NCBI GenBank assembly: GCA_033064195.1
Contig: JARBJD010000192.1
Span: forward strand, 80,317 to 144,316
From: Blattamonas nauphoetae
Taxonomy: Eukaryota > Preaxostyla > Oxymonadida
DNA: 64,000 bases
Direction: 5' to 3'
The position numbers and the translations under genes are program-made. Positions 30,191 through 64,000 of the stretch are shown here, in pieces. The stretch's first letter is position 1, and every line of letters begins with the position of its first letter. Under the pieces are notes generated by a model, which ran no database searches, was not told where the DNA came from, and saw nothing but the letters and a program-made list of their open reading frames with translations.

Positions 30191-30366
30191 TAAGGTAATA
30201 AAAAAATTGATTTTTAAAAACTAACCTTAATTTTTGCGATCATCCAAAATTGTTCTTACAAGCCTAATATCGGTCTGACGAGTTTATATACGACGTGTTT
30301 CGTGTGATCTGAGAAGTATTTCGGGGGTTCTGGGTGATCTCAAAATTAACGCTGATTTATTTTTTA

Positions 30367-30506
30367 TCAATTTTTTTAATTTGTATATGAAGAGGAGATC
30401 CAGACAAAGTTTGAAAAATCCAATTTTGAGCTTCGACCACACAAACCTCTTCCAAGGTCAATCCCGATCTGCTGAGTTCATTTCTGATGTTTTCAGAGTG
30501 ATCTGA
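30367..30506 (+). other. Early-type promoter motif and 39-codon micro-ORF in the left repeat (unit 1)
   Basis: TTTTTTTAATTTGTAT runs straight into ATG (30,387). The frame starts MKRRSRQSLKNP and stops at 30,506. The equivalent lies in the right repeat at 55,448-55,329. The promoter matches that of the polymerase and accessory genes; whether the peptide is made is unknown. Confidence 0.4.
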
Positions 30507-30566
30507 GCAGTAGTTCCTGAGATATGGGTGATCCAAAAATAAACGTTAAACTTTTTTAACTTTCTG

Positions 30567-30633
30567 ATTTTTTAATTTGTATATGAAGAGGAGTTACAGA
30601 ACAAGTTCAAGTACCGAGCCCTCGACGTAATGT
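30567..30633 (+). other. Early-type promoter motif and 16-codon micro-ORF in the left repeat (unit 2)
   Basis: TTTTTTAATTTGTAT is followed by ATG at 30,583, and the frame (MKRRSYRTSSS...) stops after 16 codons. It is the second of two diverged tandem units of about 197 bp; unit 1 starts ATGAAGAGGAG as well. Confidence 0.4.
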
Positions 30634-30765
30634 TCCAAGATACTCAGGCAAAATGGTGCCCTGGTGACTGATGCGCAGAACGATTTGGAGGTTGGATTGG
30701 AGACGGATGATCGAAAGATTGTCCCCGGGGTTCATGTTGGCAGCACTTTGATGTGCCCGTGAATC

Positions 30766-31363: not shown

Positions 31364-31405
31364 TCTTGTTTTTAGCAAAAATAAAAAATCAAAAGTGTTT
31401 AATCA

Positions 31406-33097
31406 TTAATATCCTCTCTTCACTTCTTCATACGCTTCTTGGAGACGACGATCAATAACATATCTAACTCGTGGTTGTCCATTCTCTATCCAGAACAACC
31501 AGTATGTAGCCTGATGTAATGCTAGAATAGGTGGAGGAGGACCTTCTAGAGTTGATGTGAAATATGGATCCAGTTCACCCTGATTGATTGGTGTTCCTCT
31601 ATAGACAATATTGACAGATTCTGCTGTCGAAATACCTTCTTCACCACCAGCGATTTCACTTCGATCTGTTGGAACCATGAATGTGAAAGAAGTTGCATCC
31701 GTTACTGGTCTTTTTCGTTTATATTCATTTTCTGTTTCTTTGTAGAAATAAGTGCGAGGTAAACAAATGGAGTTTTCGAACTCTTCTGTGGCAGAACATC
31801 CAATGAAATCACCGTTCACCATCATCATTTGATAGAACTCTGGTGAGATTGTTGACATTGGGAAATTGGGGAAGTTGGATCCAAGCATTTCGAATTGACC
31901 AACATATTGAGGATTTCTGAAGACTGTACATTCAGTAGGTCTTTCAGGGAATAAGCACATGAGATTCATGAGATTGTTGAGTTTGATACTGATGTTTGAT
32001 CTCACTCCCATGGCATTTGCTTTTGATTGAAATGATTGGGTGTCAATTCTTTCTGCTTTCAGGACATAGACAGTCTTTGAGTACGTGTTGATCAGTGATT
32101 GTTTTGTTGCATCTGTGATTTGATATCCGTAGCAGATCGAAGTGACTTTATCCACCGATGAGGAAAGGACATTGATTGTTGCTTCCATTGTCGAAATCTC
32201 TGAAACTCCTGAGGAGGATGGACTGTTACGTGAATTATATTGTTGAACCGGATTTCCGATTTGTGTAAATTCCTGAGTCATATTTGATAATTCTCCCTCA
32301 CGCAGAAGGTCCATTTCAGCTGGGTCTGAAAGAGACATCAATGCCTTATCTGGATATTGTTCACGACTGTTTTCCAATGTTTTTCGGATGACAGTAGATG
32401 TTCGAATTGGACAGTAAACAAGTGATTCGGTTGTCAAATGAAATCTTAATCGGAGATTGCCAAAGATGGAGTTCGGATACTGATCAAATGTACTCAGTGG
32501 AAGCAAATTCACAAATGGAATGACAAGTGGAATTGTTCTCGTGATTGTTTGAAATGCTGTGTTTAACGGAGCAAAGTAGAATCCACACACACTTGGATCC
32601 ATTCTCTGAACATTTTCCCAAAGACTGTAGCAATGCTTCATGTTGTTTTTCTCTTCATGTGACTTGAATGTGTGATACAGAAATGATTCATGGATGTGAT
32701 TATTCTGTAGTGAATTGTCAATAATGTTACCTTGACTGTCGACGAGTCTCATATCTCGAATTGCATCCGAGGATGATTTGTAACCAAAGAACATTCCATT
32801 TTCATCAACATACGGACCCAAACTGGATGATGTTGGTTTAACATATGGAATGGTGATCGTTAGATCTATTCGTAAATGACTCTTCGAAAACTCAGTCACA
32901 TCATGACCGTCATAGCACAATGGAACTTCAATTTCATCTGTGATTCTGCACGGCATTGGAGGATTTGTTGGATGCACTTCCTGAATCGAATACACGTGAG
33001 GCTCTGAATCCCACTGTTTTGGCATATACGATTGGACTTCAATTTGTTCAATTAATGTCGATGTTGGTTTGGATTGATTTGCTCTGATACTTCTCAT
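31406..33097 (-). CDS. Capsid-like protein 2 (second major-capsid paralogue)
   Basis: A 563-residue protein in the capsid cluster. Conserved blocks: EVHPTNPPMPCRI, HLRIDLTITIPY, NLLPLSTFDQYPNSIFGNLRLRFHLT, QYVGQFEMLGSNFPNFPM and PPPPILALHQATYWLFWIENG. It is paralogous along its whole length to the neighbouring 620-residue protein (FGNLRLRFHLT against FGDLKLSVYIN; the C-terminal P-P-ILA-x-x-x-TxW). Size, gene order and the regular hydrophobic strand pattern fit a double-jelly-roll capsid protein, but no fold prediction could be run. About 85% identical in wording to the copy at 60,317-62,035; the variable parts are two loops near residues 250-300 and 440-460. The late motif TTTTTTATTTTTCTATAA abuts its ATG. 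Confidence 0.65.
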   Translation of the reverse strand: MRSIRANQSKPTSTLIEQIEVQSYMPKQWDSEPHVYSIQEVHPTNPPMPCRITDEIEVPLCYDGHDVTEFSKSHLRIDLTITIPYVKPTSSSLGPYVDENGMFFGYKSSSDAIRDMRLVDSQGNIIDNSLQNNHIHESFLYHTFKSHEEKNNMKHCYSLWENVQRMDPSVCGFYFAPLNTAFQTITRTIPLVIPFVNLLPLSTFDQYPNSIFGNLRLRFHLTTESLVYCPIRTSTVIRKTLENSREQYPDKALMSLSDPAEMDLLREGELSNMTQEFTQIGNPVQQYNSRNSPSSSGVSEISTMEATINVLSSSVDKVTSICYGYQITDATKQSLINTYSKTVYVLKAERIDTQSFQSKANAMGVRSNISIKLNNLMNLMCLFPERPTECTVFRNPQYVGQFEMLGSNFPNFPMSTISPEFYQMMMVNGDFIGCSATEEFENSICLPRTYFYKETENEYKRKRPVTDATSFTFMVPTDRSEIAGGEEGISTAESVNIVYRGTPINQGELDPYFTSTLEGPPPPILALHQATYWLFWIENGQPRVRYVIDRRLQEAYEEVKRGY

Positions 33098-33119
33098 TTA
33101 TAGAAAAATAAAAAATACA
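33098..33119 (-). promoter_or_regulatory. Late-type promoter motif, capsid-like protein 2
   Basis: TTTTTTATTTTTCTATAA immediately before the ATG. Confidence 0.6.
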
Positions 33120-33144
33120 ATATCATGATTTTCTTTTCCTGTTT

Positions 33145-35007
33145 TTATGATTTCGGGATTCCGAGTTCCTTGTGCAATGCTTTCAGTGTGTGATTTGGAT
33201 AATACTCAACTTTAGGTTCGTCAATAACGAATCGTAAGACCCACCATGTTGTGGCAGTTGTGGCTAAAATCGGTGCTGGAGGATGAGTAAATGTTGTCAT
33301 ATCACTACTCTTTTGACTTGGATCGAGAACATTGTAGTACGTATCAATCAGACCTTGGTAAATCGGACTTGACCTCAAAGTGACGGGAACATTCTGACCT
33401 CTTGAACTGATTGAATCATTGCAGTTTGTTGGACATCCACTTCGTTGAGTTGAAAAGCATAAGAGGAAGTCAGTATTGTCATGAATCGGACGTACTCTTG
33501 CCATTGTTTCATTTGGGTAAGTTCTACCACCTTCAAGATGTTCTTCAACGAGAGAATCCGTCAATGAACGCTCCAAATCATCTGGAACAGTGAGGTATGA
33601 ATCAAGATTGAGTGTCGAAAATGCGAACTGATAAAAGCGAGCTCCAATGGTTGATGTCCAGTTTTCTGGATAGTATTTGTTGAGTAGATGCACACGAAGA
33701 TCTTTCTGCATTGGATTGTGGAAACAAGTGACTTCATTATCGTAGTGACGAAAGAGGAGCATAATGTCCTTGGCATTAACGAGAACCATCTGTTGAGTAC
33801 AATCAATACCTGTTGCTGTTGGTGTCTTCTGAAATGGATAGAACGATATCTTTTCTGCTGGAATTGTTCCTGGACGATCCTGATACATCTTTTTCAGACT
33901 CTCTTTCGCAATTTCTTTCATTTTGTATCCAGCACTCATGCAGTATACGTCATCAATTTGATAATCAATAATGTTCAATGAGATGTACTGATCCACAAAT
34001 TCTGGTTCTTTTGTAACTGTTCCTGCTGAATTATAGTAAATGTCTTGAGTCACTGCTGATATCCTAAATGATTGACCAATCTGAACAAAATTCTTGGTGC
34101 AGTTCGCAAGAAGAGAGTGGAAAAACCATGGACGATGTTGTTGACAATCGGCAATTGCATGATGAATTGGTGGTTTTGTTGAGCCAATGAAGGTCGACAA
34201 TGTATTCTTCAAAGTGAGTTCAGGATTAACAGGACAACAAACAAATGCATCCTCATTGATGTATACACTGAGTTTCAGATCTCCGAAGAGACATTTTGGA
34301 TGGTCAGTCATTCCTGAGAAAATGAGCAGATCTTCAAGGTTTATTGACACACGAATCGGTACCTTAATTGTGTCAGTGAAATGGCCAGCTTGAGACACTG
34401 TGGTGAAGTCTGACAATGGAATCTCGACACCTGCAACAGATTCGTCATGATTCCAAGCATTCTGCCATGGCGTGTGTGCGTGCTTCCGATTCTCCAATTG
34501 ACTCTTTGGTTTGATCATATTGTAAATGTGAGACTCCATTGAAACGTCATTGTTTGCTGGACTTATGATTCTTTGATTGTTGTGAAGAACAGTAAATCTA
34601 CTAAAGATTGATGCTGAATGCTTGAGTCCGACGAACATAAATATCCTCTCATTTGAGTAAGATCCAACTTTGTCTGGGGTAATGTCCCAATTGTTGACTT
34701 TCAGAGTCGTTGTTATTGTGAACGTAATGAATGAATCATCGATTTGACAAATGTCTTGATTACCAGTCAGTGGGATGATTATCTCTTGTCCTTTGTAGAA
34801 ACGTGAATTCTCTGATGGTTTCAATTCTTGAATAGAAGTACTGTGTGCTCCATCATTCAAGAGGAAATTAACGTGATGTTCGGACATCAGTTGCTGTTGT
34901 ATTTGACCGATGTCATCTCTGGTGTACTTTATTGATCCTGTGGTGTTTCCAGTCAAAGTTGAGGCTCCATGTCTTTTGTTTGTCAGATGTGTAATGTGTG
35001 AGTTCAT
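33145..35007 (-). CDS. Capsid-like protein 1 (candidate major capsid protein)
   Basis: A 620-residue protein beginning MNSHITHLTNKRHGASTLT. Blocks: STSIQELKPSENSRFYKGQ, NQDICQIDDSFITFTIT, VPIRVSINLEDLLIFSGMTD, CLFGDLKLSVYINEDAFVCC, AEKISFYPFQKTPTATGIDC, DIMLLFRHYDNEVTCFHNPM and PPAPILATTATTWWVLRF. Size and placement upstream of capsid-like protein 2 fit the double-jelly-roll major capsid protein of Polintons. A partner copy of 621 residues lies at 62,083-63,948, more variable in the segments near residues 270-290 and 450. The two paralogues together may build a mixed capsid. Function is inferred from context, not from a recognised signature. Confidence 0.7.
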   Translation of the reverse strand: MNSHITHLTNKRHGASTLTGNTTGSIKYTRDDIGQIQQQLMSEHHVNFLLNDGAHSTSIQELKPSENSRFYKGQEIIIPLTGNQDICQIDDSFITFTITTTLKVNNWDITPDKVGSYSNERIFMFVGLKHSASIFSRFTVLHNNQRIISPANNDVSMESHIYNMIKPKSQLENRKHAHTPWQNAWNHDESVAGVEIPLSDFTTVSQAGHFTDTIKVPIRVSINLEDLLIFSGMTDHPKCLFGDLKLSVYINEDAFVCCPVNPELTLKNTLSTFIGSTKPPIHHAIADCQQHRPWFFHSLLANCTKNFVQIGQSFRISAVTQDIYYNSAGTVTKEPEFVDQYISLNIIDYQIDDVYCMSAGYKMKEIAKESLKKMYQDRPGTIPAEKISFYPFQKTPTATGIDCTQQMVLVNAKDIMLLFRHYDNEVTCFHNPMQKDLRVHLLNKYYPENWTSTIGARFYQFAFSTLNLDSYLTVPDDLERSLTDSLVEEHLEGGRTYPNETMARVRPIHDNTDFLLCFSTQRSGCPTNCNDSISSRGQNVPVTLRSSPIYQGLIDTYYNVLDPSQKSSDMTTFTHPPAPILATTATTWWVLRFVIDEPKVEYYPNHTLKALHKELGIPKS

Positions 35008-35030
35008 TTTATCAAAAATAAAAAAACATA
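35008..35030 (-). promoter_or_regulatory. Late-type promoter motif, capsid-like protein 1
   Basis: TTTTTTTATTTTTGATAAA touches the ATG. Confidence 0.6.
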
Positions 35031-35035
35031 ATTGA

Positions 35036-35338: not shown

Positions 35339-35358
35339 TTATGTAAAAATAAAAAACT
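35339..35358 (-). promoter_or_regulatory. Late-type promoter motif, 100-residue protein
   Basis: TTTTTTATTTTTACATAA directly before ATG; identical in the next gene. Confidence 0.6.
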
Positions 35359-35714: not shown

Positions 35715-35734
35715 TTATGTAAAAATAAAAAATA
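35715..35734 (-). promoter_or_regulatory. Late-type promoter motif, 113-residue protein
   Basis: TTTTTTATTTTTACATAA directly before ATG. Confidence 0.6.
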
Positions 35735-36337: not shown

Positions 36338-36373
36338 CACTTTCTATAACAATAAAAAATTGATTTTAATGTT

Positions 36374-37327: not shown

Positions 37328-37352
37328 CTGTGTATTTCATACAAAATAAAAA
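37328..37352 (-). promoter_or_regulatory. Late-type promoter motif, 317-residue gene
   Basis: TTTTTTATTTTGTATGAAAT upstream of the ATG, in the divergent gap with the ATPase gene. Confidence 0.5.
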
Positions 37353-37388
37353 ACCCAAAACTATATTTTAATTCGTGATAAATCATAA

Positions 37389-38829: not shown

Positions 38830-38900
38830 TTCGAACACAAACACCTTTCTTTTGTATTCTGAAGACAGAAAAGTGAATTTTAATCAATACAGCTAAACTT

Positions 38901-39040
38901 GTTCTGAAATGAAGAGGAATAATTCAGAAATGAAAATGATTGTTCAGAAATGAAGAAGAATTGTTCAGAAATGAAAAATGATTGTTCAGAAATGAACATG
39001 AATAATTCAGAAATGAAAACTAATAATTCTGAAATGAAAA
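38901..39040 (+). repeat. Satellite-like array, TTCAGAAATGAA units, left
   Basis: About seven imperfect ~20-bp units built on ttcagaaatgaa followed by a short variable spacer (gaagaatt, aatgatt, catgaat). The same units occur in inverse orientation at 44,191-44,410. Confidence 0.85.
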
Positions 39041-39419
39041 ACAACAGCTACAGGTATTCAAGACAACATATTTATGATGTTAAGCGGACGGACAGAGCAC
39101 CAGATCTTGAGGACAGAGGACAGAGGTCTTGTCCGATTCGGAAATCCAGCTTGATATGCATTTGTTTCGTCTAAATTCACCTTCTTCCTGCTCGTAAAAC
39201 ACGCTTTGTCTTCATTTTGCTCGGTATTATGCCTGAGAATGTCTCGAAAAGACGATTCCAAAACAATAATTTTGCATTGCCTTTTTCTGACACTATAGTG
39301 AACTTTATCATTCAAGATTTGTTCATCCCCATCTAAAATTGTTGAAAATGGCGTTAAAGTGCGTGAAAACCGATTTGGTGGCTAATCACGAGCTGGAGGG
39401 GTACTGTCCTACAAACTCC

Positions 39420-39600
39420 TAATTAGGAGTTCAGAGGACGATCGGCCCAAGAGAGGACAGAGTAGGACAAAATCGGACAAGCACCTTATATTCATACTGG
39501 AACTTTCTCTCAATTAGTTCATCCAACTTCTGTCGTTATCTCAAAACAGGACAAATCGGACATGTCCTGTCCTGTCCTGTCCTGTCCTTTGATCTGATCC
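39420..39600 (+). repeat. GGACA/TGTCC microrepeat region
   Basis: Contains aggacagagtaggacaaaatcggac and a run of five tgtcc(tg) units near 39,560-39,590. Related ggac-rich runs recur at 39,085-39,130, 44,430-44,770 and 46,590-46,640, only within the insert. Confidence 0.6.
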
Positions 39601-40573
39601 TCTCACCCATGTCAAGTTGTTCTTGTCTTCTCGCTTCTTTCAGATCCTCTCATCTCGCGAATTGATGTCAATACTCCATTCAACACTTCTTTTGTCCGGT
39701 TTTGATTCATTTTTGTCTCCATCGTAACCAAATTTGTGGAGATCTGCTCGACTATTTGTACACTCTCCTTTTCTCTGTCCATGACTACAACCTTCTTTGA
39801 TAAATGCCAATCTCACAATATTAGTTTGCCCTTCCGTCGTTTTTTCCATTTGATTCGTGTTTTTCTCTTCATTAGTCTGGAATTGGCGTCTGGTTCAAAT
39901 CCAGATATGATCTAGACCGAAAGAAATGAGATATTGAACATTCATCATATCAGTATACTTCTCCATTGTTTTAACACTCGTATTTTTCTATTTCTCTCAC
40001 TTGGTTCGGAGTAGATATCTTGATCACGCTCAAGTCAGAAATGGAGGTCATGAGGATGTGCTACGAAGTCGCTCACACAACAACTCCATCGAAAAAGCCT
40101 GCTGTTCGGATTGATTGTCTTCTTATCATCTCCTATCTCCAACCTCTTAACATCCTAATCATCAAAATGAAACCCAAATGTCACGTATCAGATCCACTTC
40201 ACTAAGTGATATTCACACGTTTGTTCTTCGTTCTCGATCATTCTCTCATTCCATAACAGACAGCCATCATCGTTTCTCTTCTTCAACATCTTCCGATGCC
40301 ACAAATCCAGAACAGAAACTTCAGAACGGAAGTGTACCAGTTTTGTAACATATCTGCCATTTCTGCGGCCTTTCTCGCCCTCAACAGATTCACTTCATCA
40401 TTGTTTTTCGATCAATGCAGAGGATGTTCATGTACTGTTCATGTTCTCGATCTCTCACTCGACATCCCATTTCAGCGCAATATCACAATCATCTTTCATA
40501 TCTCTTTCATTTCCCGAGGATATTACTATCAATTCGCGCACACGGCTCTCCATTCATTCTCATTTCGACCAAT

Positions 40574-41463
40574 CTCATGACATCAACTTCCAAATCGAAC
40601 CTGACACCCAGTGAATTACCCAGGTCCGTTCTTCTTCCTTCGGTGGCATGGCAGGATCCAAAGTCTGGAGCCGAACTCGACGCCGAGTATGCTCACCTCA
40701 TCGTCTCTGCCGATCGAAAACAACAACGACGACTGACGAGCCCCATCGCCCGACGAACATCGCTTCTCGATTGTCCCTGTCCCGCAGATGCACCAAACAA
40801 ACCAGCTCTCACATGTCGCCCGTTCGGGCGGGACATAAAGTCCCGTTCTCTCTCTCCTGCAGGGGCGGAGTGATGTAGTGGTCGAGGATCTCCTAACACA
40901 AGCTTCGTTTGATCTCCAACGTACCTCACCATCCACAGCAGCTATCCGCTGCACCGCTTTATCCGCCTCGTCTGGCCAGCTCGTCAGCATCTCTCTTTCT
41001 CCGTCACTCCGCTCCAACTTTCCTGCAACTTTCGCTCTCCTTCATCCTTCGTCTCCCATTCTCCAACAAAAACGCTCACCTCCGCCACCTCAACCCGACA
41101 CAAGAAAGGACATCAACCAGTGGCTCTCGTCTCACTCGCACTAAACCACATCAACAACGTCATCGCAGTTGGAAGGCGTGGATGAGCGAATTGAAGAGCA
41201 GAAGGCAGCCGACGAGCAGTTCATGTCGTGCTGCTCCACATGTTGCAGATAAACTCTCCACTGTGTATGTCCAGACATCACTTCGCCTATCAACAAAAGA
41301 CCATCCATCCCCTCTCCACTGTCAGGTGACACACTCGACATTGGCCTCCCCTGTCACATCACCATCCTTCTGCCCCGCCAACGGAGAAGACGAATCGGTT
41401 CAGGAGACCGAGGTCGACTCAGTCAGACTGCTTGTTCTCGTCTTCGAACATCACAACCACTAA
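40574..41463 (+). other. GC-richer host-like block, coding status unclear
   Basis: Overlapping plus-strand frames (40,415-40,873 and 40,909-41,463) and a minus-strand frame (40,616-41,017) have Ser/Pro/Arg-rich, host-like composition. No frame contains a recognisable domain. Either a decayed host gene or fragments of an intron-bearing one. Confidence 0.3.
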
Positions 41464-41813
41464 CTCCCTCTTCACACCACCTTCCCTCCTCTCGACCACG
41501 TCACTTCCGACCAGACTGAATTCGCTCATCCACAACTTTATGCCTTCACAAAACTGATGATGAGTGCTCTGGGAAAGCCACATACGAACTTGACAGCCCT
41601 TTCATCATCACCACCACAATCTCAACACTCGATCTTCTCGTTCCATGAACCAGACTCACCAGCTCTATATCTTCCGCAGAACTTCTCCACATCGAAAGCG
41701 AGCTGTCGGAAAGAAACACAAGAAATTTTCACAATCCATCAGACGATGCAAGCTCGGTCATTCTTTTCTCCAGTACCTTCACAACACTATATCTTCGGCT
41801 CCTCGTTCTCGTC

Positions 41814-42718: not shown

Positions 42719-42898
42719 TCCATTTCATCATCTTCATCCTCCTCTTCTGCCATCCCAAGAATCAACAGAAGCCAACTCTTGCATCTCAGCAAAAACCAGA
42801 CAACATCCAGCAAGACATCAAGTTTGAAGACGAGATCATGGTCGTGGATCCAACAACAGCATATTTCGGCAAGCACAACAGCGATTCACACGCTGGAC

Positions 42899-43096
42899 TC
42901 GAGAGGGGGAAAAGGGAGGGGACGGGACAAGGGAGGAGTGAGAGATGTTGTGAAGGAAGTGGAGGGAGAGAAAGGAGGAGGAGAGAATAGGAGAGGAGGC
43001 AGGCAGAGGAGGAACAGAAGAGACGAGAAGAAGATGACAGATGACGTCGGGAGGAGGAAGAGTGACGACAGAGGGAGGAAGAGAGGAGGCGAATGA
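42899..43096 (+). repeat. Purine-rich (GGA/GAG) low-complexity tract
   Basis: About 200 bases almost entirely A and G, made of gaggagg and gggaggag variants. The frames across it encode Arg/Gly/Glu-rich or, inverse, Ser/Pro/Leu-rich strings and are not credible genes. Confidence 0.8.
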
Positions 43097-43099
43097 TGG

Positions 43100-44190: not shown

Positions 44191-44410
44191 TGTTTTCATT
44201 TCTGAATTATTCATGTTCATTTCTGAACAATCATTTTTCATTTCTGAACAATTCTTCTTCATTTCTGAACAATCATTTTCATTTCTGAATTATTCGTGTT
44301 CATTTCTGAACAATCATTTTCAATTCTGAACAATTCCTCTTCATTTCTGAACAATCATTTTCATTTCTGAATTATTCCTCTTCATTTCAGAACTATTCTT
44401 CTTCATTTTT
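44191..44410 (-). repeat. Satellite-like array, TTCAGAAATGAA units, right (inverted)
   Basis: About ten ~20-bp units of ttcatttctgaa with spacers, the inverse of the 38,901-39,040 array and in the same spacer order (gaagagg, aaatgatt, gaagaag, aacatg). Together they bracket 5.2 kb. Confidence 0.85.
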
Positions 44411-52000: not shown

Positions 52001-53361
52001 GTGAGAGGAACCATGAGTATTGGAACAACTAGTGCATCATCGTTTTCGTTGACATACGACTGACTGAGGAAGTATCGTTTCTTGTCTTCATCGTATTCAT
52101 AAATGTGAACTGTAATGTTTAGAATTTTCATCGTTTCTTCCATATCTGATGCAATGTCAAATCCAGGATATTGTTGAAGATGTGGTGTCAATTGATGGGA
52201 TGTGAGATGGGTTAGATTCTTGCAGACGGCAAACAGTCGATGTGCTTCAGAATTTCTGGTATTCGGTGGAATTTTATTCCCTGGTGTGTCTGGGAGTGTT
52301 TTGTGAGAAAGAGCTTGAAAGAAACAGATGTTGTAAGGTGAATCAACGTATTTTATGTTGTGTTTTTTGATGTGTTCTGTAAGAATGGTGTTCGCTTTTC
52401 CAGCAACTGGGAATCTGTAAACAGCAATCAGAATTGAATGAAAAGCAATGAACATTGTCTTTGTATCCATCAGTGTTCTCTCTTGTGATTCTTTGATAAG
52501 ATTGATTGCATATTTTGAATACTCATTGATGTCTGCTTCACTTCGAATCACGGTCGGGAAACTCTTTGAGGTGTTCTCCAATTCTGGTCTGAAATCCTTG
52601 TATGTAGTCTCATCTCTGTCTTTTCTTTCAACGATCTTACCAAAATCAATACTAATCTTAAATGGATGATCCTTTTCTTTTTCATACACTGCTTTGATGA
52701 AGGTTGTGATTTCCTCAACGTTCTTCAGATGATTGTGGAAGTACAATTGATATGGCTTTCCATTGTCACTCACTTTCTCGATCTCATTCTTTTTGAACTT
52801 CCTTCGTGCATTTGTCAAACATTCGTTGAAGACTAGCTTGTTTCGTGGTTCAGCGAGTAAGATACACTCGTTAAATCCATCAAATTCCTTCACTTTTCTT
52901 GATTCCATCTGTTCATTTTTCTTCTGAATGATCAACAGATTCTTCATCCAGTGATCCATCAGCTTCTCTTCAATCGATTTGAGCTTCCGTGTGATCTTGA
53001 ACACTTGCTTTTTCAAATCATCTTTGTTAATTCTTGGATTTGCTTTCATCTTTTGGATTTCTGCTTTCATTTCTTCATCAATCCTCTTGTGTTCATGCTG
53101 ATCTTCAGACGTCATCAGTCGTTGGTTTTCTAACTTGCTCAGAAATGTTGAAAGAGTCTCGCCAGGAGGTGACTGAAGATATCCGACGTCTGGATTCTTA
53201 AGCATGGACATGAGATAAGCATTCTGATGTTGATAGTTTCTGCTGTTTGGATCATATTGACGATCTTGACCATATTTATCCTTGAATTCAAAGGTGGTGT
53301 CGGGAAATAGTTGTTTGAGTTTTGTGATGGCAGATACTACAGAGTTCAAAGGAGTTTGCAT
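49066..53361 (-). CDS. Protein-primed DNA polymerase B with OTU-like and HNH domains
   Basis: A 1,431-residue replicative polymerase. N-terminal ~330 residues: charged helices (possible terminal-protein region). Near 338-460: an OTU-protease-like stretch with Cys in SPYNICFFQALSH and His in TLVHVMFISD, then a CPYC...H zinc-finger-like motif. Exonuclease motifs: YDFETMED (near 552), IGFNSSRFDINLIF and YNIRDVECM. Near 885-930 an HNH-type zinc module is inserted (CYICKCHF, LDRIDNSKGHS, KICCDNCNTYKSD). Polymerase motifs: GVDFNSLYPSAF (near 1014), KTNLNGSYGYDG (near 1198) and EGDTDSAYW (near 1295). All catalytic residues seem present. The early-type motif TTTTTTAATCTGTTTAAA abuts the ATG. Confidence 0.93.
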   Translation of the reverse strand: MQTPLNSVVSAITKLKQLFPDTTFEFKDKYGQDRQYDPNSRNYQHQNAYLMSMLKNPDVGYLQSPPGETLSTFLSKLENQRLMTSEDQHEHKRIDEEMKAEIQKMKANPRINKDDLKKQVFKITRKLKSIEEKLMDHWMKNLLIIQKKNEQMESRKVKEFDGFNECILLAEPRNKLVFNECLTNARRKFKKNEIEKVSDNGKPYQLYFHNHLKNVEEITTFIKAVYEKEKDHPFKISIDFGKIVERKDRDETTYKDFRPELENTSKSFPTVIRSEADINEYSKYAINLIKESQERTLMDTKTMFIAFHSILIAVYRFPVAGKANTILTEHIKKHNIKYVDSPYNICFFQALSHKTLPDTPGNKIPPNTRNSEAHRLFAVCKNLTHLTSHQLTPHLQQYPGFDIASDMEETMKILNITVHIYEYDEDKKRYFLSQSYVNENDDALVVPILMVPLTPTLVHVMFISDPEKLTGYKLCPYCQSRGFQVKDSHFSRDYEKHLADCKELDGKHVKKIALDRTPRPYVPHILNNRTNEFLMAHKRQDEFKPTQFYITYDFETMEDLILDNLFSEDNTQLISHLKPLSVASAIKTKSGVKSIYFDLRDGKDFVKQWIRQLFKSAETVREDNLYKDPVIPSQNEVSVIGFNSSRFDINLIFRDLVDKDWKVVSFLGSTTKYKQVLIRHEKTQQVLRFIDMMSDTGPMTLDNAVKAFGGNTTLQKSFFAYESFDSSDYNTVLSKQEPFSKYEFYSSLNNSEMSDTDYQLYLDDWNKQGFKNRWDYLKFYNIRDVECMNAPLDNLIDLNFQYKVDMLYNLSLSANASAIKYACAYKDFDIDADYNECDDSGPIKITKQYWKYKVEGYRYQDQKAHRNTNKNVNEADYEWFVQQCKKVCYICKCHFSQAVRPTLDRIDNSKGHSKENVKICCDNCNTYKSDKDEHLTRLRIQLKKYCIWKSLPMTLTHEQTYHKLRAAVTGGLSNVQHRQNIKDVTPINHFSFEDGVVKSTDTEHIMTHVCGVDFNSLYPSAFSSIKNKNNPYTKHRMYMPGRCMYTTTGDKECREIIENKNQKTLFVAELKGHIDEKYINDFINFPPIFRNIVVNTTEENIGEKTYSLMKKHGLKTDDKQRKLTQLLSTHDQYMFFSTYYLWFLIDYCHFIVDDIKSVMVFSRHAGFEPFVTSFMNDRIEAMKVGNKGKEQFCKTNLNGSYGYDGMNTEKYNSITICNEKRTYLKQMMKGFVATREINEDNYIVIEDREKASCKTCLQEAVFTLDNAKSWYLNFIYNFMYKCLDMNKIHFCEGDTDSAYWAISGDPNAGIHQQFEHVIADKEFYDAHKYEWFPNPEKGVDDEKKLLGLAIEKEGEQMICLAPKCYSLDEKCKIKGVSLKKTTITSDDYVKCLNGEKTVTTTLNFQTRRVHSDDDQNGFEIAKIQQQKLSLN

Positions 53362-53380
53362 TTTAAACAGATTAAAAAAC
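53362..53380 (-). promoter_or_regulatory. Early-type promoter motif, DNA polymerase
   Basis: TTTTTTAATCTGTTTAAA directly before ATG. Confidence 0.55.
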
Positions 53381-53528
53381 AGAAAAGAAAAAAAGTTTAG
53401 CGTTTATTCTGTGTTGTTGGGAAATGATGATAACTGCATCAATACAAATGAGTAATGGAAAATGAGATCAATGAGCAAAGAATAAATAACAAATGCCGAT
53501 TTTGAATAACTATTGACTGTCCAAAAGT

Positions 53529-54848: not shown

Positions 54849-54868
54849 TTTATACTAATTAAAAAATT
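54849..54868 (-). promoter_or_regulatory. Early-type promoter motif, 201-residue accessory gene
   Basis: TTTTTTAATTAGTATAAA touches the ATG. Confidence 0.55.
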
Positions 54869-54921: not shown

Positions 54922-56100
54922 GCAAAAATAACCGAAGAGAAGAGCCTTCCCACGTTCGTACGAGCTTCCTATAGACACCCCGATACTCCTTTGGGGATCG
55001 TTCTATCGCGATCCTTCTAAATGACTGCTGCTGGCGAAGTCCTTGAAGGGTTAAGTCTTGGGTGGGCATGATTCACGGGCACATCAAAGTGCTGCCAACA
55101 TGAACCCCGGGGACAATCTTTCGATCATCCGTCTCCAATCCAACCTCCAAATCGTTCTGCGCATCAGTCACCAGGGCACCATTTTGCCTGAGTATCTTGG
55201 AACATTACGTCGAGGGCTCGGTACTTGAACTTGTTCTGTAACTCCTCTTCATATACAAATTAAAAAATCAGAAAGTTAAAAAAGTTTAACGTTTATTTTT
55301 GGATCACCCATATCTCAGGAACTACTGCTCAGATCACTCTGAAAACATCAGAAATGAACTCAGCAGATCGGGATTGACCTTGGAAGAGGTTTGTGTGGTC
55401 GAAGCTCAAAATTGGATTTTTCAAACTTTGTCTGGATCTCCTCTTCATATACAAATTAAAAAAATTGATAAAAAATAAATCAGCGTTAATTTTGAGATCA
55501 CCCAGAACCCCCGAAATACTTCTCAGATCACACGAAACACGTCGTATATAAACTCGTCAGACCGATATTAGGCTTGTAAGAACAATTTTGGATGATCGCA
55601 AAAATTAAGGTTAGTTTTATAAAATCAATTTTTTTATTACCTTATATAGTGATGAAAAAAGTGAAAAAACCAAAATCGACCAAAACAATCCACGGATGGT
55701 CTGGCTGTATGGGGAGGTAGTGCACGTCATTCTGGTGCATTCTGAGCGTGCCACTGCACTGTGGACTTTGTGGACTTGTGGACCTTCGCGAAGCTTAGGC
55801 TCTTTAGAGCCGATGTGGACCTCCAAAAATAAAAACCAATTTGATTTCGCGATCCACCTAGGCCACCTGGGCCAGTCAATTGGATTGATGGATGACTACC
55901 AAATGATCGTGCCGATTGATTTGACCCTGGCTCGACTGAAATCAATTTTTGGAGCTCATTTTATCAAAATAAAGTAAGAATCAGGTCCAAAAGTCATCAA
56001 AATCGAAGGGTCAGGAAATGTGTGTTTTTGAGGTCTAAATTGATTTATTCCGTGTTATTGGCGATCTAGATAGGTATCGATTTTTGCCATCTATACTACT
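54922..56100 (-). repeat. Polinton right terminal inverted repeat, 1,179 bp
   Basis: Inverse of 29,132-30,913 minus the MITE. Ends ACTACT at 56,100. It carries the tandem early-promoter units facing inwards (ATGs at 55,252 and 55,448), a ggtcca-type block at 55,812-55,879, and the MPTQDLTLQG frame (55,069 leftwards), which here runs out into unique sequence. Confidence 0.93.
55812..55879 (-). repeat. Polinton internal repeat block, right-repeat copy
   Basis: Inverse of the left-repeat copy at 29,357-29,420, with the same ccacctaggccacctgggcc core. Confidence 0.85.
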
Positions 56101-56106
56101 AGCGCC
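56101..56106. repeat. Polinton target-site duplication, right copy
   Basis: AGCGCC immediately after the ACTACT terminus, identical to 29,126-29,131. Confidence 0.93.
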
Positions 56107-56446: not shown

Positions 56447-56470
56447 ATTCAATTTTTTAATTTGTATAAA
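56447..56470 (+). promoter_or_regulatory. Early-type promoter motif, 198-residue accessory gene
   Basis: TTTTTTAATTTGTATAAA abuts the ATG at 56,471. Confidence 0.55.
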
Positions 56471-58747: not shown

Positions 58748-58771
58748 TTTGAATTTTTTAATTTGTATTAA
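58748..58771 (+). promoter_or_regulatory. Early-type promoter motif, truncated accessory gene
   Basis: TTTTTTAATTTGTATTAA directly before the ATG at 58,772. Confidence 0.5.
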
Positions 58772-59020
58772 ATGAATCCAACTGCGATGTACAAGGTCTC
58801 GTCAGAGACTTCGAACACTCCGAAGTGGAGCGAAAGACGTCGAGTATGTTCAGAACAAGCATTAATTGAATCAATGAGAGAAGAGAACTGTACGCTGGTC
58901 TCTGAGTATGTCAGAAATAATGTGCCGGTGACGTATGTTCATGAGGGAATCAAGATTTTTATTTTCAATGAAAGAGCAAACAGAAATGAATCGACAAAAA
59001 TACAATTCACAAATGATTGA
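58772..59020 (+). pseudogene. Truncated copy of the ~200-residue accessory family
   Basis: After a short unrelated N-terminus (MNPTAMYKVSSETSN) it matches the middle unit of the family: CSEQALIESMREENCTLVSEY and PVTYVHEGI. It then leaves the family and ends at 59,020. Its 3' half overlaps, in another frame, the start of the S74 fibre-like gene. Most likely an early gene cut by recombination whose 3' end became the late promoter region of the next gene. Confidence 0.5.
58950..58967 (+). promoter_or_regulatory. Late-type promoter motif, S74 fibre-like gene
   Basis: GATTTTTATTTTCA abuts ATG 58,968. It decides the start over the upstream in-frame ATG at 58,935. Confidence 0.5.
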
Positions 59021-59846
59021 GAAAATGATTGATCATAATCTGTCGACAACCAACGAGAATGCAGCAGTGATTGACTCACTTCAGAAGACAACAGAAGCAC
59101 ACAAGACAGCGCTGTCATCAATCCAAAAAGTAGTCAGCACAAATGGATCGATCACGACACCAACAATCGGAGGATTGATCAATGTTAATGGAGCGAAGTG
59201 GAATATATCAGAGGGATCACTTCCGAAGTATCCTGGCACTTATCCATCATCAACATTTAAGTCTGGCATTTCAATCTCACAATCAATTTCAGAAACTTCA
59301 GGAATTCAGTTCAATGGTGATGGTATCATTATGTGGTCACCATGTGACACACCAGCTTTGTATTACTACGATGAGGACACAGGTTCAGGAGTGTTTTCAA
59401 TATCACCAACTGGAAGTTTTTCTCAACTGTCAGACAGAAGAGTGAAAAGAAATATTGAACCATACCCAGATGTTCTTGAACAATTGAATAAAGTCGAAAT
59501 CGTGCAGTATCAGTTCAACACATTCGACTCGAAGATCAACAAAGTGACGAAGCAAATTGAAAACGAGACAGATGAAGAACACTTGAAGAACTGCAAAGAG
59601 AAATGTGAATGCTTGAAGAAGGAAAGTGAGAAGAAACACATCGGAGTGATTGCTCAACAGATCCAAGAAATATTCCCTGAAGTCGTGAATGATTCCAATC
59701 CAGATTGTCTTCAAGTTGATTATGCAGAACTCTCGTGCTTCTGTATGAAAGCCATTCAGGAACTGAGTAGCATTCTCGGACAACAACAGACACTCATCAA
59801 TGAACTCATTCAAAAATATAATTCTCTGATTAATACTCCAACATGA
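58968..59846 (+). CDS. Fibre-like protein with C-terminal S74 intramolecular chaperone
   Basis: 292 residues from MKEQTEMNRQK. N-terminal ~70 residues: a coiled-coil-like helix (MIDHNLSTTNENAAVIDSLQ). The middle ~100 residues look like beta-structured fibre sequence (GGLINVNGAKWN, GIQFNGDGIIMWSPCD, GVFSISPTGSFSQ). The C-terminal ~130 residues match the S74/endosialidase chaperone: SDRRVKRNIEPYPDVLEQL with the self-cleavage Ser and Lys in LSDRRVK, YQFN, KKHIGVIAQQIQEIFPEVV and VDYAELSCFCMKAIQEL, ending in a coiled coil. Such domains trimerise fibre or spike proteins and then cut themselves off. A receptor-binding spike is the likely role. Its 3' end overlaps the convergent 136-residue gene by 17 bp. 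Confidence 0.85.
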   Translation: MKEQTEMNRQKYNSQMIEKMIDHNLSTTNENAAVIDSLQKTTEAHKTALSSIQKVVSTNGSITTPTIGGLINVNGAKWNISEGSLPKYPGTYPSSTFKSGISISQSISETSGIQFNGDGIIMWSPCDTPALYYYDEDTGSGVFSISPTGSFSQLSDRRVKRNIEPYPDVLEQLNKVEIVQYQFNTFDSKINKVTKQIENETDEEHLKNCKEKCECLKKESEKKHIGVIAQQIQEIFPEVVNDSNPDCLQVDYAELSCFCMKAIQELSSILGQQQTLINELIQKYNSLINTPT

Positions 59847-60240: not shown

Positions 60241-60264
60241 TTGTGTTTTCTACAAAAATAAAAT
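60241..60264 (-). promoter_or_regulatory. Late-type promoter motif, 136-residue gene
   Basis: TTTTATTTTTGTAGAAAAC lies a few bases before the ATG. Confidence 0.5.
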
Positions 60265-60316
60265 ATCATATTTGATTCTTATTATTATGACTTCGTCATT
60301 CTAATAAATCTTTGAT

Positions 60317-62035
60317 TTAGTATCCTCTCTTCACTTCTTCATATGCTTCTTGGAGTCGACGATCAATGACATATCGCACTCTTGGTTGTCCATTCTCGAT
60401 CCAGAACAGCCAGTATGTAGCCTGATGTAATGCCAAAATGGGTGGAGGAGGACCTTCTGGAGTTGAGGTGAAATATGGATCGAGTTCTCCCTGATTGATT
60501 GGTGTTCCTCTGAAGACAATGTTGATTGATTCTGCTGTTGAAATACCTTCTTCACCACCAGCAATTTCACTTCGATCTGTTGGAACCATAAAAGTGAAAC
60601 AAGTTGCATCTGTGAATGGTTTTATTTTCTTGTACCGTGTTATGGTAGTCGAACTCCTTCTTTCCCAAATTCGAGGTTCACAAATGGAATTCTCAAACTC
60701 TTCTGTTGCAGAACAACCAATGAAGTCACCGTTCACCATCATCATTTGATAGAACTCTGGTGAGACGGTTGACATTGGGAAATTGGGAAAGTTGGATCCA
60801 AGCATTTCGAATTGACCAACATATTGAGGATTGCGAAAGACTGTACACTCGTTTGGTCTTTCAGGGAATAAGCACATAAGATTCATGAGATTGTTGAGTT
60901 TGATACTGATGTTTGATCTCACTCCCATGGCATTTGCAGATGATTGAAATGATTGCGTGTCAATTCTTTCTGCTTTAATGACATACACAGTTTTTGAGTA
61001 AGTGTTGAAGAGAGATTGCTTTGTGGCGTCAGTAATTTGATATCCATAACAAATTGAAGCGACTTTATCCACTGATGAGGAGAGGACAGTTGAAGTTGTC
61101 TGTTTAGGTTCTATCCAATCCCAATGCGAAATGACAGACGCTGTTCCTTCGGAGGTGGTAGGTCCTCTATGTCTTTCACATTGTAGAACTGGATTCCCAA
61201 TTTGCGTAAACTCCATAGTTAAAGTTGACCATTCTCTATCATGCATCATCTGAAGATAACCTCGTTCAGTATTATGATCAACCTGCCCGACAGTAGGGGT
61301 ATCTAATTTTTCTTGAAGTGTTTGTTGAATGACAGTTGATGCACGAATGGGACAATACACAAGAGAATCAGTTGTCAAATGAAATCGTAACCGTAAATTA
61401 CCAAAGATTGAATTCGGATACTGATCAAAGGTACTCAGTGGAAGGAGATTCACAAATGGTATTACAAGAGGAATGGTTAACGGATATGAGGTTTCTGTAC
61501 CACCCATTGGGATTAAATATGCTCCACACACACTTGGATCCATTCTCTGAACATTTTCAAATAGACTGTAACAATGCTTCATGTCGTTTTTCTCCTCATA
61601 CGACTTGAAAGTGTGATACAGAAATGATTCGTGAACATGATTATTCTGAAGTGTGTTGTCAATAATGTTTCCTTTACTGTCAACCAGTCTCATGTCTCGA
61701 ATGGCATCTGATGATGATTTGTAACCGTAGAACATTCCGAAGTAAGATACATGACTTCTCCCCCATTGTGTTGGTTTTTTGTATGGAACAGTGATCGTGA
61801 GATCAATACGCAAATGACTCTTCGCAAACTCAGTCACATCATGACCATCATCACACAATGGAACTTCAATCTCATCTCCGATTCTGCAAGGCATAGGTGG
61901 ATTCGTTGGATGCACTTCTTGGATGGAATAAATGTGTGGTTCTGAATCCCATTGTTTTGGCAGATATGATTGCACTTCAATTTGCTCAATTAATGTCGAT
62001 GTTGGTTTGGATTGATTTGATCTGATACTTCTCAT
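60317..62035 (-). CDS. Capsid-like protein 2, second element
   Basis: 572 residues, about 85% identical in wording to 31,406-33,097. The differences cluster in surface-loop-like segments: around residues 85-95 (KKPTQWGRSHVSYF), 170-180 (LIPMGGTETSYP), 245-300 (a nine-residue longer stretch with many changes) and 450-460. The core blocks (NSIFGNLRLRFHLT, MGVRSNISIKLNNLMNLMCL, QFEMLGSNFPNFPM) are unchanged. Conserved core plus variable loops is what a capsid shell under selection for function would show. The late motif before the ATG is identical to the first element's. Confidence 0.65.
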   Translation of the reverse strand: MRSIRSNQSKPTSTLIEQIEVQSYLPKQWDSEPHIYSIQEVHPTNPPMPCRIGDEIEVPLCDDGHDVTEFAKSHLRIDLTITVPYKKPTQWGRSHVSYFGMFYGYKSSSDAIRDMRLVDSKGNIIDNTLQNNHVHESFLYHTFKSYEEKNDMKHCYSLFENVQRMDPSVCGAYLIPMGGTETSYPLTIPLVIPFVNLLPLSTFDQYPNSIFGNLRLRFHLTTDSLVYCPIRASTVIQQTLQEKLDTPTVGQVDHNTERGYLQMMHDREWSTLTMEFTQIGNPVLQCERHRGPTTSEGTASVISHWDWIEPKQTTSTVLSSSVDKVASICYGYQITDATKQSLFNTYSKTVYVIKAERIDTQSFQSSANAMGVRSNISIKLNNLMNLMCLFPERPNECTVFRNPQYVGQFEMLGSNFPNFPMSTVSPEFYQMMMVNGDFIGCSATEEFENSICEPRIWERRSSTTITRYKKIKPFTDATCFTFMVPTDRSEIAGGEEGISTAESINIVFRGTPINQGELDPYFTSTPEGPPPPILALHQATYWLFWIENGQPRVRYVIDRRLQEAYEEVKRGY

Positions 62036-62056
62036 TTATAGAAAAATAAAAAATAC
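62036..62056 (-). promoter_or_regulatory. Late-type promoter motif, capsid-like protein 2, second element
   Basis: TTTTTTATTTTTCTATAA before the ATG, the same as at 33,098. Confidence 0.6.
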
Positions 62057-62082
62057 AATATCAATAATTTCTTTTACTGTTT

Positions 62083-63948
62083 TCAATTTGGAATAATTCC
62101 TAAATCTTTGTGCAACGCTTTCAATGTGTGATTAGGATAGTACTCAACTTTTGGTTCACCATTGCTGTATCGTAATACCCACCACGTTGTTGCAGTTGTG
62201 GCTAATATTGGTGCTGGAGGATGTGTAAATGTTGTCATATCACCACCACTTTGACTCGGATTGTAGACATTGTAGTATGTGTCAAGATTACCTTGATAAA
62301 TTGGATGTGATCTTAAAGTGACAGCAGTATTTCCTTTTGAACTGATCGAATCATTGCAGTTCGTTGGACATCCACTTCTCTGAGTAGGAAAGCACAGAAG
62401 GAAGTCAGTATTGTCATGAACTGGACGAACTCTTGTCATTGTTTCATTGGGATATGTTCCGTCACCAGTGAGTTTCTCTTCAACGAGAGAATCCGTCAGT
62501 GACCGCTCCAAATCATCTGGAACAGCTAGGTACGAATCGAGATTGAGAGTTGATAATGCAAACTGATAGAAGCGAGCTCCAATAGTTGTTGTCGGTTGTT
62601 CTGGATAGTACCTGTTTTGTAAAGTCACTTGGATGTTCTTCTGCATTGGATTGTGGAAGCAAGTGACTTCATTGTCGTAGTGACGGAAGAGAAGCATGAT
62701 ATCCTTTGCATTCACCACTACCATTTGCTGAGTACAATCAATTCCTGTTGCCGTTGGCGTCTTCTGAAATGGATAGAACGATATCTTCTCTGCTGGAATT
62801 GTTCCAGGACGATTCTGATACATCTCCATGAGTTTCTTTATCGCCCCATCTTTCATTTTGTATCCAGAACTCATGCAATACACATCATCAATCCGATAGT
62901 TTGTGACGTTTAATGAGATGTACTGATCGACGAATTCAGGTTCTGTTGTCACGACATTGGCTGTTGAGCAAACTATGTCTTTGGTAACTGTTGGTTGAAG
63001 AAATGATTGACCAATTTGAACGAAGTTCTTTGTGCATGAGGTGACGAGGTTGTTCAGAAAATATGGACGATGTTGAATACAATTGAGAATTGCTGCTTTA
63101 ATCGTTGGTGCTGCTGCTGTTCCAGTTACGAGTGATGATAGTGTATCTTTCAAAGTAAGTTCAGGATTCACAGAACAACAAACAAACGCATCCTCATTCA
63201 TGTGCACACTCAATTTCAAATCACCAAAGAGACATTTTGGATAGTCAGTCATCCCTGAGAAAATGAGAAGATCTTCAAGATTAATCGACACACGAATAGG
63301 CACATCAATAGTGTCTTGAAACACTCCTGTTCCGGACGTCGTTGTAAAATCCGAAAGTGGAATATAAACACCAGAAACCGATTCATCATGATTCCAAGCA
63401 TTCTGCCAAGGTGTGTGACAATGTTTTCGATTCTCCAATTGACTCTTAGGTTTGATCATATTGTAGATGTGAGACTCCATTGATACATCATTGTTTGTTG
63501 TGCTGATGATTCTTTGATTGTTGTGAAGAACAGTAAGGTCACGAAAGATTGATGCCGAATGTTTGAGTCCAACGAAAATGAATATTCTCTCATTCATGTA
63601 CGATCCGATTTTACCAGCAGTTGTCTTCCAATTATTGAGTTTCAGTGTTGCTGTCATTGTGAATGTAATGAAGGAATCATCGATTTGACAAATGTCTTGA
63701 TTACCAGTCAACGGAATGATTCTTTCCTGTCCTTTGTAGAATCGTGAATTCTCGGATGGTTTTAATTCCTGAATGGAAGTACTATGTGCCCCATCATTCA
63801 TGAGGTAATTAATGTGATGTTCGGACATCAGTTGTTGTTGTATTTGACCCATGTCATCTCTTGTGTATTCTATCCTTCCTGTGGTATTTCCAGTCAAAGA
63901 TGATGCTCCAGTTCTTTTGTTTGTCAGATGTGTTATATGCGAGTTCAT
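62083..63948 (-). CDS. Capsid-like protein 1, second element
   Basis: 621 residues beginning MNSHITHLTNKRTGASSLTG. Nearly collinear with 33,145-35,007. Variable segments lie near residues 200-215 (FTTTSGTGVFQ), 275-300 and 545-565; the blocks around FGDLKLSVHMNEDAFVCC and DDLERSLTDSLVEEKL are kept. A modified upstream sequence (AATTTTTTCTTTTTGTTAAA) replaces the usual late motif. The gene upstream of it would start beyond the window edge. Capsid function is inferred as for the first copy. Confidence 0.7.
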   Translation of the reverse strand: MNSHITHLTNKRTGASSLTGNTTGRIEYTRDDMGQIQQQLMSEHHINYLMNDGAHSTSIQELKPSENSRFYKGQERIIPLTGNQDICQIDDSFITFTMTATLKLNNWKTTAGKIGSYMNERIFIFVGLKHSASIFRDLTVLHNNQRIISTTNNDVSMESHIYNMIKPKSQLENRKHCHTPWQNAWNHDESVSGVYIPLSDFTTTSGTGVFQDTIDVPIRVSINLEDLLIFSGMTDYPKCLFGDLKLSVHMNEDAFVCCSVNPELTLKDTLSSLVTGTAAAPTIKAAILNCIQHRPYFLNNLVTSCTKNFVQIGQSFLQPTVTKDIVCSTANVVTTEPEFVDQYISLNVTNYRIDDVYCMSSGYKMKDGAIKKLMEMYQNRPGTIPAEKISFYPFQKTPTATGIDCTQQMVVVNAKDIMLLFRHYDNEVTCFHNPMQKNIQVTLQNRYYPEQPTTTIGARFYQFALSTLNLDSYLAVPDDLERSLTDSLVEEKLTGDGTYPNETMTRVRPVHDNTDFLLCFPTQRSGCPTNCNDSISSKGNTAVTLRSHPIYQGNLDTYYNVYNPSQSGGDMTTFTHPPAPILATTATTWWVLRYSNGEPKVEYYPNHTLKALHKDLGIIPN

Positions 63949-64000
63949 TTTAACAAAAAGAAAAAATTACATTTATGCTTTAACTCTAGTTATTACTTTT

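Follow-up and report, generated by a model that had tools for sequence, protein, structure and literature searches.

The 64,000-nt stretch of the Blattamonas nauphoetae genome analyzed here (the window, to whose full length all coordinates refer) contains a Polinton, element 1, and part of a second element, element 2, both of which carry short T-rich motifs close to the start codons of their genes. Element 1 spans positions 29132–56100 and does not begin at 30364, the first position of the range given in a first-pass annotation of the same DNA. It possesses the terminal inverted repeats (TIRs) and the 6-bp target-site duplication of a Polinton: the duplicated AGCGCC was read directly at 29126–29131 and 56101–56106, as were the element ends, 5'-AGTAGTATAG, and alignment of the TIR pair gave 725 nt at 99.3% and 464 nt at 99.4% identity. 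Its p136 frame is broken by a stop after two codons, and its integrase (INT) gene is frameshifted. The left TIR holds an insert of about 0.6 kb (29591–30188), related copies of which occur nearby in the host part of the window, and a second insert of about 5.5 kb (about 38900–44400) is flanked by 122-nt inverted repeats at 98% identity. Element 2 starts somewhere past element 1, and the contig ends before the element does.

The PolB open reading frame (ORF) encodes 1431 amino acids (49066–53361, minus strand) and matches the DNA polymerase group phrog_1907 (E = 8.1e-6); several of its relatives, such as P0019 at 48% identity, carry PF03175, and the window protein itself had no Pfam match at E ≤ 0.01. 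The listed PolB relatives in Streblomastix strix were 37–48% identical, and nearly all named relatives listed belonged to this species, with one labelled Methanobrevibacter. Residues 853–952 or thereabouts form an HNH/endonuclease VII-like domain (phrog_1035, E = 8.1e-11), in which C888, C891, H912, N916, C921, and C924 are invariant across 12 aligned sequences. The sole database relative of MCP1 was a protein of the oxymonad S. strix (34% identity over 36% of the query). No MCP1 relative was found in phage records and none was confirmed in IMG/VR, where alignment of PolB gave only two short matches, both in the HNH part. MCP1 and MCP2, which stand in tandem in each element (pairs at 31406–35007 and 60317–63948, minus strand), are distant paralogues of each other (25.6% identity over 597 amino acids, E = 3e-48), each of which matches one and the same ORF in two distant contigs, L153 and L154. 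The putative integrase matched PF00665 at E = 8.5e-4 and 20 bits, under the curated threshold of 32.6, and a related ORF adjoins PolB on L153 (32% identity, E = 9.5e-42). The ATPase had weak matches only (phrog_3717 terminase, E = 0.078). The names MCP1, MCP2, and ATPase are putative and refer to the gene layout, the MCP-like pairing, the S. strix match, and weak or partial matches. The fibre ORF carries Peptidase_S74 (E = 2e-14); upstream of it p82 resembles a truncated p197 relative that runs into the fibre gene (58772–59846, plus strand), so that the fibre start and its late-type box lie inside p82. No ORF was assigned as an adenovirus-type protease, at which no search was aimed.

Two kinds of motif were distinguished at the gene starts (Table 1), a late-type T box (L; TTTTTTATTTTT, strict pattern T4+AT4+) and an early-type box (E; TTTTTTAATTNG, strict pattern T4+AATTNG). 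The sequence TTTTTTANTTTNTATA, with up to two mismatches, matched 15 times in the window versus 0.94 expected, the largest count in 100 shuffles being 4, and 13 of these matches lie at listed gene starts or TIR sites, the exceptions being located at 35043 and 55633 on the plus strand. Strict L boxes end exactly 6 nt upstream of the ATG in MCP2a, MCP1a, p100, p113, and MCP2b, as do strict E boxes in p201, p197, and p82. The T box is followed by CTATAA, GATAAA, GTTAAA, ACATAA, CCTAAA, GTAGAA, ATAGAAA, GTATGAAA, or a similar A-rich, initiator-like word, which keeps near the box, and the ATG comes directly after it or no more than about 10 nt further on. The distance from box to ATG consequently varies, from 2 to 15 nt among the L genes overall (mostly 10 nt in p195, 10–15 in p317, 13 in p136) and being 13 nt in ATPase. 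Eight of the nine strict E boxes in the window occupy the sites described, and neither core occurs in the 17,151 nt of sense sequence from 13 element ORFs, a set without p82 and fibre. Consecutive late genes are separated by gaps of 28–47 nt, which leave little room for other promoters, and the earlier statement that the genes have almost no 5' leader holds in so far as there is almost no room for one.

Table 1. Motif sites and gene arrangement in the window, with the start codon that each box precedes.
Feature	Position	Strand	Box and following word	ATG	Remark
Element 1, gene order	29132–56100	.			TIR – p136, MCP2, MCP1, p100, p113, p195, p317 (-) / ATPase (+) / nested insert / INT, PolB, p201 (-) – TIR; from TIR alignment, target-site duplication, ORFs
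Left TIR, outer copy, E box	30371–30383	+			
Left TIR, inner copy, E box	30568–30579	+			
p136a, L box	31377–31388	-	TTTTTTATTTTT + GCTAAAAACAAGA	31363	
MCP2a, L box	33104–33115	-	TTTTTTATTTTT + CTATAA	33097	
MCP1a, L box	35014–35026	-	+ GATAAA	35007	
p100, L box	35345–35356	-	+ ACATAA	35338	
p113, L box	35721–35732	-	+ ACATAA	35714	
p195, L-variant box	36351–36359	-	TTTTTTATT + GTTATAGAAAGTG	36337	
p317, L box	37343–37353	-	TTTTTTATTTT + GTATGAAATACACAG	37327	
ATPase, E-type core	37366–37375	+	TTTTAATTCG + TGATAAATCATAA	37389	Single box; ATG 13 nt past core
Integrase, L box	48962–48970	-	TTTATTTTT + GTAGAA	48955	Copy frameshifted downstream
PolB, putative E promoter	53368–53394	-	TTTTTTAATCTG	53361	Proximal box 53368–53379; upstream T run 53388–53394
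p201, E box	54855–54866	-	TTTTTTAATTAG + TATAAA	54848	Second T box above
Right TIR, inner copy, E box	55256–55267	-			196 nt from outer copy; points inward to p201/PolB
Right TIR, outer copy, E box	55452–55464	-			
p197, E box	56453–56464	+	TTTTTTAATTTG + TATAAA	56471	Element 2
p82, E box	58754–58765	+		58772	
Fibre, L box	58956–58965	+	TTTTTATTTT + CA	58968	Inside p82 frame; one copy only seen
p136b, L box	60254–60263	-	+ GTAGAAAACACAA	60240	
MCP2b, L box	62042–62053	-	+ CTATAA	62035	
MCP1b, L-variant box	63955–63966	-	TTTTTTCTTTTT + GTTAAA	63948	

The AT-rich motifs that the first-pass annotation had described at Polinton gene starts were thus recovered, with adjustments at individual genes. 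Of the two capsid genes, to both of which it had assigned the late motif, MCP2a, MCP1a, and MCP2b have the strict box, whereas MCP1b carries the variant TTTTTTCTTTTT. The late motif is present before fibre, but at a start (58968, 292 amino acids) other than that of the 303-residue ORF, and before the integrase, but at a start (48955) about 480 nt above the first ATG of the long ORF, with a frameshift between. The early word reported for PolB and the genes of about 200 residues is of the E type, although PolB (TTTTTTAATCTGTTTA) and p201 (TTTTTTAATTAGTATA) do not have exact copies of it. At the TIR micro-ORFs, to which the same word had been attributed, the site is conserved and the ORF behind it is not reliably so: the outer ORF has 39 amino acids in the window and in copy L008, 38 with a different end in L005, and 17 in L007, and the inner one has 15, 15, and 55 amino acids in the copies compared. 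Left out of that annotation were p195, which is late-type with a variant box in the window, and ATPase with its early-type core.

Further copies of the elements were retrieved by genome-wide searches of the assembly (88,311,006 bases in 837 contigs). Since the two MCP1 searches each scored 71 matches from 1,821 and 1,756 first-look candidates, respectively, copy numbers are lower bounds. The comparison included 30 MCP1 copies near element 2 (among them that of the window), 16 stretches across the identity range of the element-1 relatives, 16 p201-PolB stretches, 13 p197 stretches, and 20 integrase starts. Counted as distinct upstream sequences, and with the L core taken as T3+AT4+ within 32 nt of the ATG, the L core was found in 182 of 198 upstreams of nine gene families (MCP1 34/37, MCP2 24/25, p100 35/38, p113 27/34, p195 31/32, p317 10/10, p136 3/3, INT 17/18, fibre 1/1), versus 6.5% of shuffled sequences of positions -32 to -1 of this group. 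The E core was absent from all 198 and present in 36 of 47 upstreams of the remaining sites (PolB 8/10, p201 10/17, p197 9/10, p82 1/1, TIR 2/2, ATPase 6/7). The window copy of p195 is the single miss among the 32 distinct p195 upstreams, the other 31 carrying the full box. In six of the seven p113 misses the upstream sequence is common to all six, unrelated to the others, and devoid of a T box; they represent one lineage (L010, L016, L029, L031, L034, and similar). At the integrase start, TTTATTTTTG stands at the same place in 19 of the 20 other copies fetched and TTAATTTTTG in one (L122). In all 11 genes compared, positions -20 to -1 were more alike than positions -60 to -41 (for example 0.91 versus 0.59 in MCP1 and 0.60 versus 0.40 in p317).

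The best discriminator of the two classes is a tandem second T box, not the variant of the T run. A second run of T5+ located 1–10 nt above the proximal box was detected in 37 of 40 sequences of five families (PolB 8/10, p201 16/17, p197 10/10, p82 1/1, TIR 2/2) and in 4 of 203 elsewhere, all four being p100 sequences whose single box is divided by the pattern. When positions were taken relative to the ATG, the second T box was found in 39/40 versus 6/204, and these six (five p317, one p136) have a single box further from the ATG. On the level of gene families the separation is 5/5 versus 0/10 (Fisher's test, 3e-4, for a grouping made after the sequences had been seen). The proposal of two start-proximal classes that follow gene family is therefore upheld by the second box, whereas the words originally quoted for them do not separate the classes on their own. 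A distal word resembling AACGTTAA was also considered as a mark of the early class (2/10 PolB, 5/17 p201, 1/2 TIR) and was dropped for the second T box because it precedes MCP1 as well (3/37).

Equal frequency of the motifs before host genes, which the first-pass annotation had named as an outcome that would speak against it, was not observed at the host starts sampled. Neither core was present in any of 31 host starts from two gene families (13 tubulin, 18 histone), a set that leaves out 2 of 15 tubulin and 1 of 19 histone stretches without an assignable start; twelve Ras stretches were dropped as a control, their first exons not being assignable. The host stretches share other boxes, namely TTAAGC(G/T)C(C/T)TC, resembling TTAAGCGCTTC, in 6 of 15 tubulin stretches and ACGCGTAA in 14 of 19 histone stretches (histone and tubulin stretches together being L131–L149 and L055–L069), which are possible host promoter elements in an oxymonad. 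Across the assembly, TTTTTATTTTTNNNNAAATG, one of the late-type patterns, occurred 1570 times (730 + 840), and its reversed control not once. Among 100 places listed, 86 have a neighbor on the same strand within 2.3 kb, with spacings clustering near 330–350, 680–720, and 1910–1930 nt, close to the start-to-start distances in the window of 331 nt (p100–MCP1), 707 nt (p113–MCP1), and 1910 nt (MCP1–MCP2); at least five of the 14 lone places are no more than 4 kb from a contig start. We conclude that the motifs are genuine, occur far more often than by chance, and are a property of the elements.

In codons 2–15 the ratio of non-synonymous to synonymous polymorphism (pN/pS) was 0.19 for MCP1, 0.00 for p113, and 0.07 for p195. 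This purifying selection supports the use of the respective ATGs, and transcription of these three genes must therefore start in the short gap or above the box. A canonical TATA box with initiation about 30 nt downstream was rejected for the L class, since it would place the transcript start within ORFs, and the first codons of these are under selection; the evidence against this arrangement is clear for MCP1, p113, and p195 and is not so for p317.

Alignment of PolB also identified four contigs (L152–L155) in prokaryote-labelled records that are presumably misbinned, with best segments of 33–39% identity, and a fifth, short match (L156); relatives of INT and MCP are encoded on L153 and L154 as well. 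L153 (PolB identity 33%) contains 6 T boxes versus 0.23 expected, with a maximum of 2 in 200 simulations, and five of the six are located 18–53 nt upstream of start codons, which belong to INT, MCP, and two small ORFs; one ORF has two such boxes. At least one relative of the lineage thus shares the T box, there with longer leaders.

Several observations weigh against an interpretation of the motifs as core promoters of two classes. Half of the strict L boxes in the window (9/18) stand away from any gene start, namely two in the TIRs, two in the insert of the left TIR, three in the PolB-p201 repeats, one antisense in MCP2b, and one in the host part, not at a gene. The family-level test comprises 15 families grouped after the fact, and the sequence counts overstate independence because the copies are closely related (many at 96–98%). 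An L-type box is also contained, as the distal box, in 7/10 PolB and 15/17 p201 sequences, and one p201 clade (L100–L103, L106, L109) has an L-like proximal box, so that the proximal word alone fails to separate the classes. The split into replication and virion genes that had first been suggested is crossed by the late-type INT and by ATPase with its early-type core, and what stands of it is the separation by gene family. The pN/pS ratios of codons 2–15 are not low everywhere (p317 1.50, PolB 0.50, p201 0.48, p197 0.51, ATPase 0.55). Among the distant contigs, L154 has one strict T box only, before INT, L155 has no strict T box, and L152, with a G + C content of 22%, is uninformative (5 T boxes versus 4.4 expected).

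These points notwithstanding, we consider it likely that these motifs serve as core promoters in a lineage of integrating Polinton viruses of an oxymonad, tandem in the early and single in the late class, and read by a polymerase supplied in trans. A late-type promoter would consist of one T box followed within a few nucleotides by the A-rich initiator-like word (TAAA, TATAA, TAGAA, or TATGAA) on the ATG or within about 10 nt of it, and each gene of the tightly packed virion array would be under its own promoter of this type. An early-type promoter would have, just above this box, another T box that ends some 20–30 nt before the ATG, and mostly AATTNG in the proximal one; it would drive the genes of PolB and of the p201/p197 proteins as well as transcription running inward from the TIRs, where the sites face inward and those on the right are upstream of p201 and PolB. 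That the motifs function as promoters, that the initiator-like word marks the transcript start (with leaders near 0–13 nt), and that tandem means early and single means late we infer from these arrangements; an early/late program, suggested by the gene roles, is plausible but unproven. A late-type integrase could ride in the virion.

The source of the polymerase was addressed by searches for RPB1 domain 2, which matched the assembly three times, the number that Pol I, II, and III would account for, so that no fourth multi-subunit RNA polymerase was found. Given this result the polymerase is most likely supplied in trans, and as the element ORFs scanned contained no RNA polymerase domain either, the enzyme would come from the host or from a coinfecting virus. 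The candidate for a class-specific factor would be the p201/p197 protein, unless a coinfecting large virus supplies everything. A DNA-binding switch of this kind is a lead only, since p201 had no protein database match and no Pfam match above cut-off, p197 but not p201 matched the HNH endonuclease phrog_559 (E = 7.7e-7, residues 47–185), and the predicted p197 model is weak (pLDDT 64.8, pTM 0.35). We put forward tentatively, as a possibility with the odds against it, that oxymonad Polintons run a poxvirus-like temporal program from leaderless promoters that the host polymerase does not normally read; they would then need a hitherto unknown large DNA virus that infects oxymonads, in a virophage-like life, or on p201/p197 redirecting the host polymerase to T-box promoters.

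An alternative is that host RNA polymerase II reads the motifs as ordinary compact host initiators. Pol II is the enzyme to expect by default, the assembly having yielded just three RPB1-type matches, and short leaders are common in some metamonads. However, neither core occurred in the 31 host starts sampled, and the tubulin and histone stretches share different boxes, which makes this explanation rather unlikely. Also unlikely, in our estimation, is that the elements stay silent in the nucleus until a large DNA virus with promoters of the pox-, asfar-, or mimivirus type coinfects the cell and its RNA polymerase reads them, a proposal that concerns the enzyme and is compatible with the promoter interpretation. 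We know of no giant virus of oxymonads, none having been looked for beyond these searches, and count this against it; a VLTF3 search of the assembly gave nothing, its control being silent too. The helper would moreover need a matching early-type promoter. In its favor, no extra RPB1 and no polymerase domain in the scanned element ORFs were found, mavirus-type elements are described as sharing the late promoter of their giant virus (passages of PMC8547959), and a T-rich core with TAAAT(G) on the start codon and no leader corresponds to descriptions of vaccinia late promoters (passages of PMC5294985 and PMC11980589). TAA(A) directly abuts the ATG in 36/36 MCP1, 23/25 MCP2, 36/38 p100, and 33/34 p113 distinct upstreams versus 5/31 host starts, but in only 3/32 p195, 0/10 p317, 0/2 p136, 6/18 INT, and 0/1 fibre upstreams, and the gap between box and TAAA is shorter than the 5–7 nt of vaccinia.

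A translation signal, that is, a T-rich leader or start-codon context, would account for the spacing of 6 nt that most genes show between motif and ATG. This we regard as highly improbable, since box and ATG are 2–15 nt apart in L genes and 18–53 nt apart in the distant relative, whereas the initiator-like word keeps its place beside the box, the E-type TIR sites precede ORFs that are not reliably conserved, and the host starts checked lack the motif. Least probable is that the T boxes, in so compact an array, are signals for transcription termination or polyadenylation of the gene before them: most boxes do also follow a stop codon because the intergenic gaps are so short, one box on L153 lies 8 nt past the PolB stop, and three window boxes lie in repeats below p201, but some boxes are not preceded by a gene end (those between p317 and ATPase, which diverge, in the p82 frame before fibre, and before p197), and no strict box follows the stops of p136a, p136b, ATPase, and INT on their strand before the next gene.

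Our literature searches, by which subscription papers and preprints were largely not covered, gave no answer to how capsid genes of Polintons are expressed and retrieved no published promoter description for Polintons or oxymonads. With a many-copy Polinton family, two promoter-like classes, and a host that according to passages of PMC10703272 is already in culture, the question of expression becomes directly testable. The short patterns also offer a cheap way to find such elements, and shared promoters enter the debate on whether virophages or Mavericks came first, as passages of PMC10328495 indicate.

Among the closest known systems are the Polintons/Mavericks of metamonads, including S. strix (PMC10120064), in which relatives of PolB and MCP1 occur; the main text of that paper uses "promoter" and "motif" 0 times, and its passages contain no promoter description. 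The late promoter TCTA of Mavirus/EMALE and CroV (passages of PMC8547959 and PMC5294985) is comparable in being a short AT-rich motif before genes of a capsid-encoding element that is integrated in the nucleus of a protist. In the oxymonad elements, however, TCTA is confined to some genes (MCP2, part of p113), MCP1 boxes being followed by GATAAA or GTTAAA and those of p100 mostly by CCTAAA, ACATAA, or AAA; there are two classes, and no giant virus is known. The cytoplasmic linear plasmids of yeast likewise have a promoter of its own for each gene, close to the ATG, with an initiator TAAAN reported for 12 genes (passages of PMC6211774), but their upstream conserved sequence ATNTGA was not seen in the oxymonad-element upstreams displayed, and the plasmids encode an RNA polymerase and a capping enzyme. 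Vaccinia late promoters, described in passages of PMC5294985 and PMC11980589 as a T-rich core, a 5–7 nt gap, and TAAAT(G) on the start codon without a leader, resemble the oxymonad elements in the core, the overlap of TAAAT(G) with the start codon, a predicted lack of leaders, and a separate class for presumably earlier genes. This layout, a T core with TAA(A) abutting the ATG, is present in MCP1, MCP2, p100, and p113 and absent from p195, p317, p136, and most INT copies, several genes using TAGAA or TATGAA instead; the gap is shorter, the early-type class is T-rich and tandem and not A-rich, and no viral RNA polymerase was found among the element ORFs scanned or, with three RPB1 matches, in the assembly. 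The likeness to vaccinia late promoters concerns the way of working and is not put forward as one of membership.

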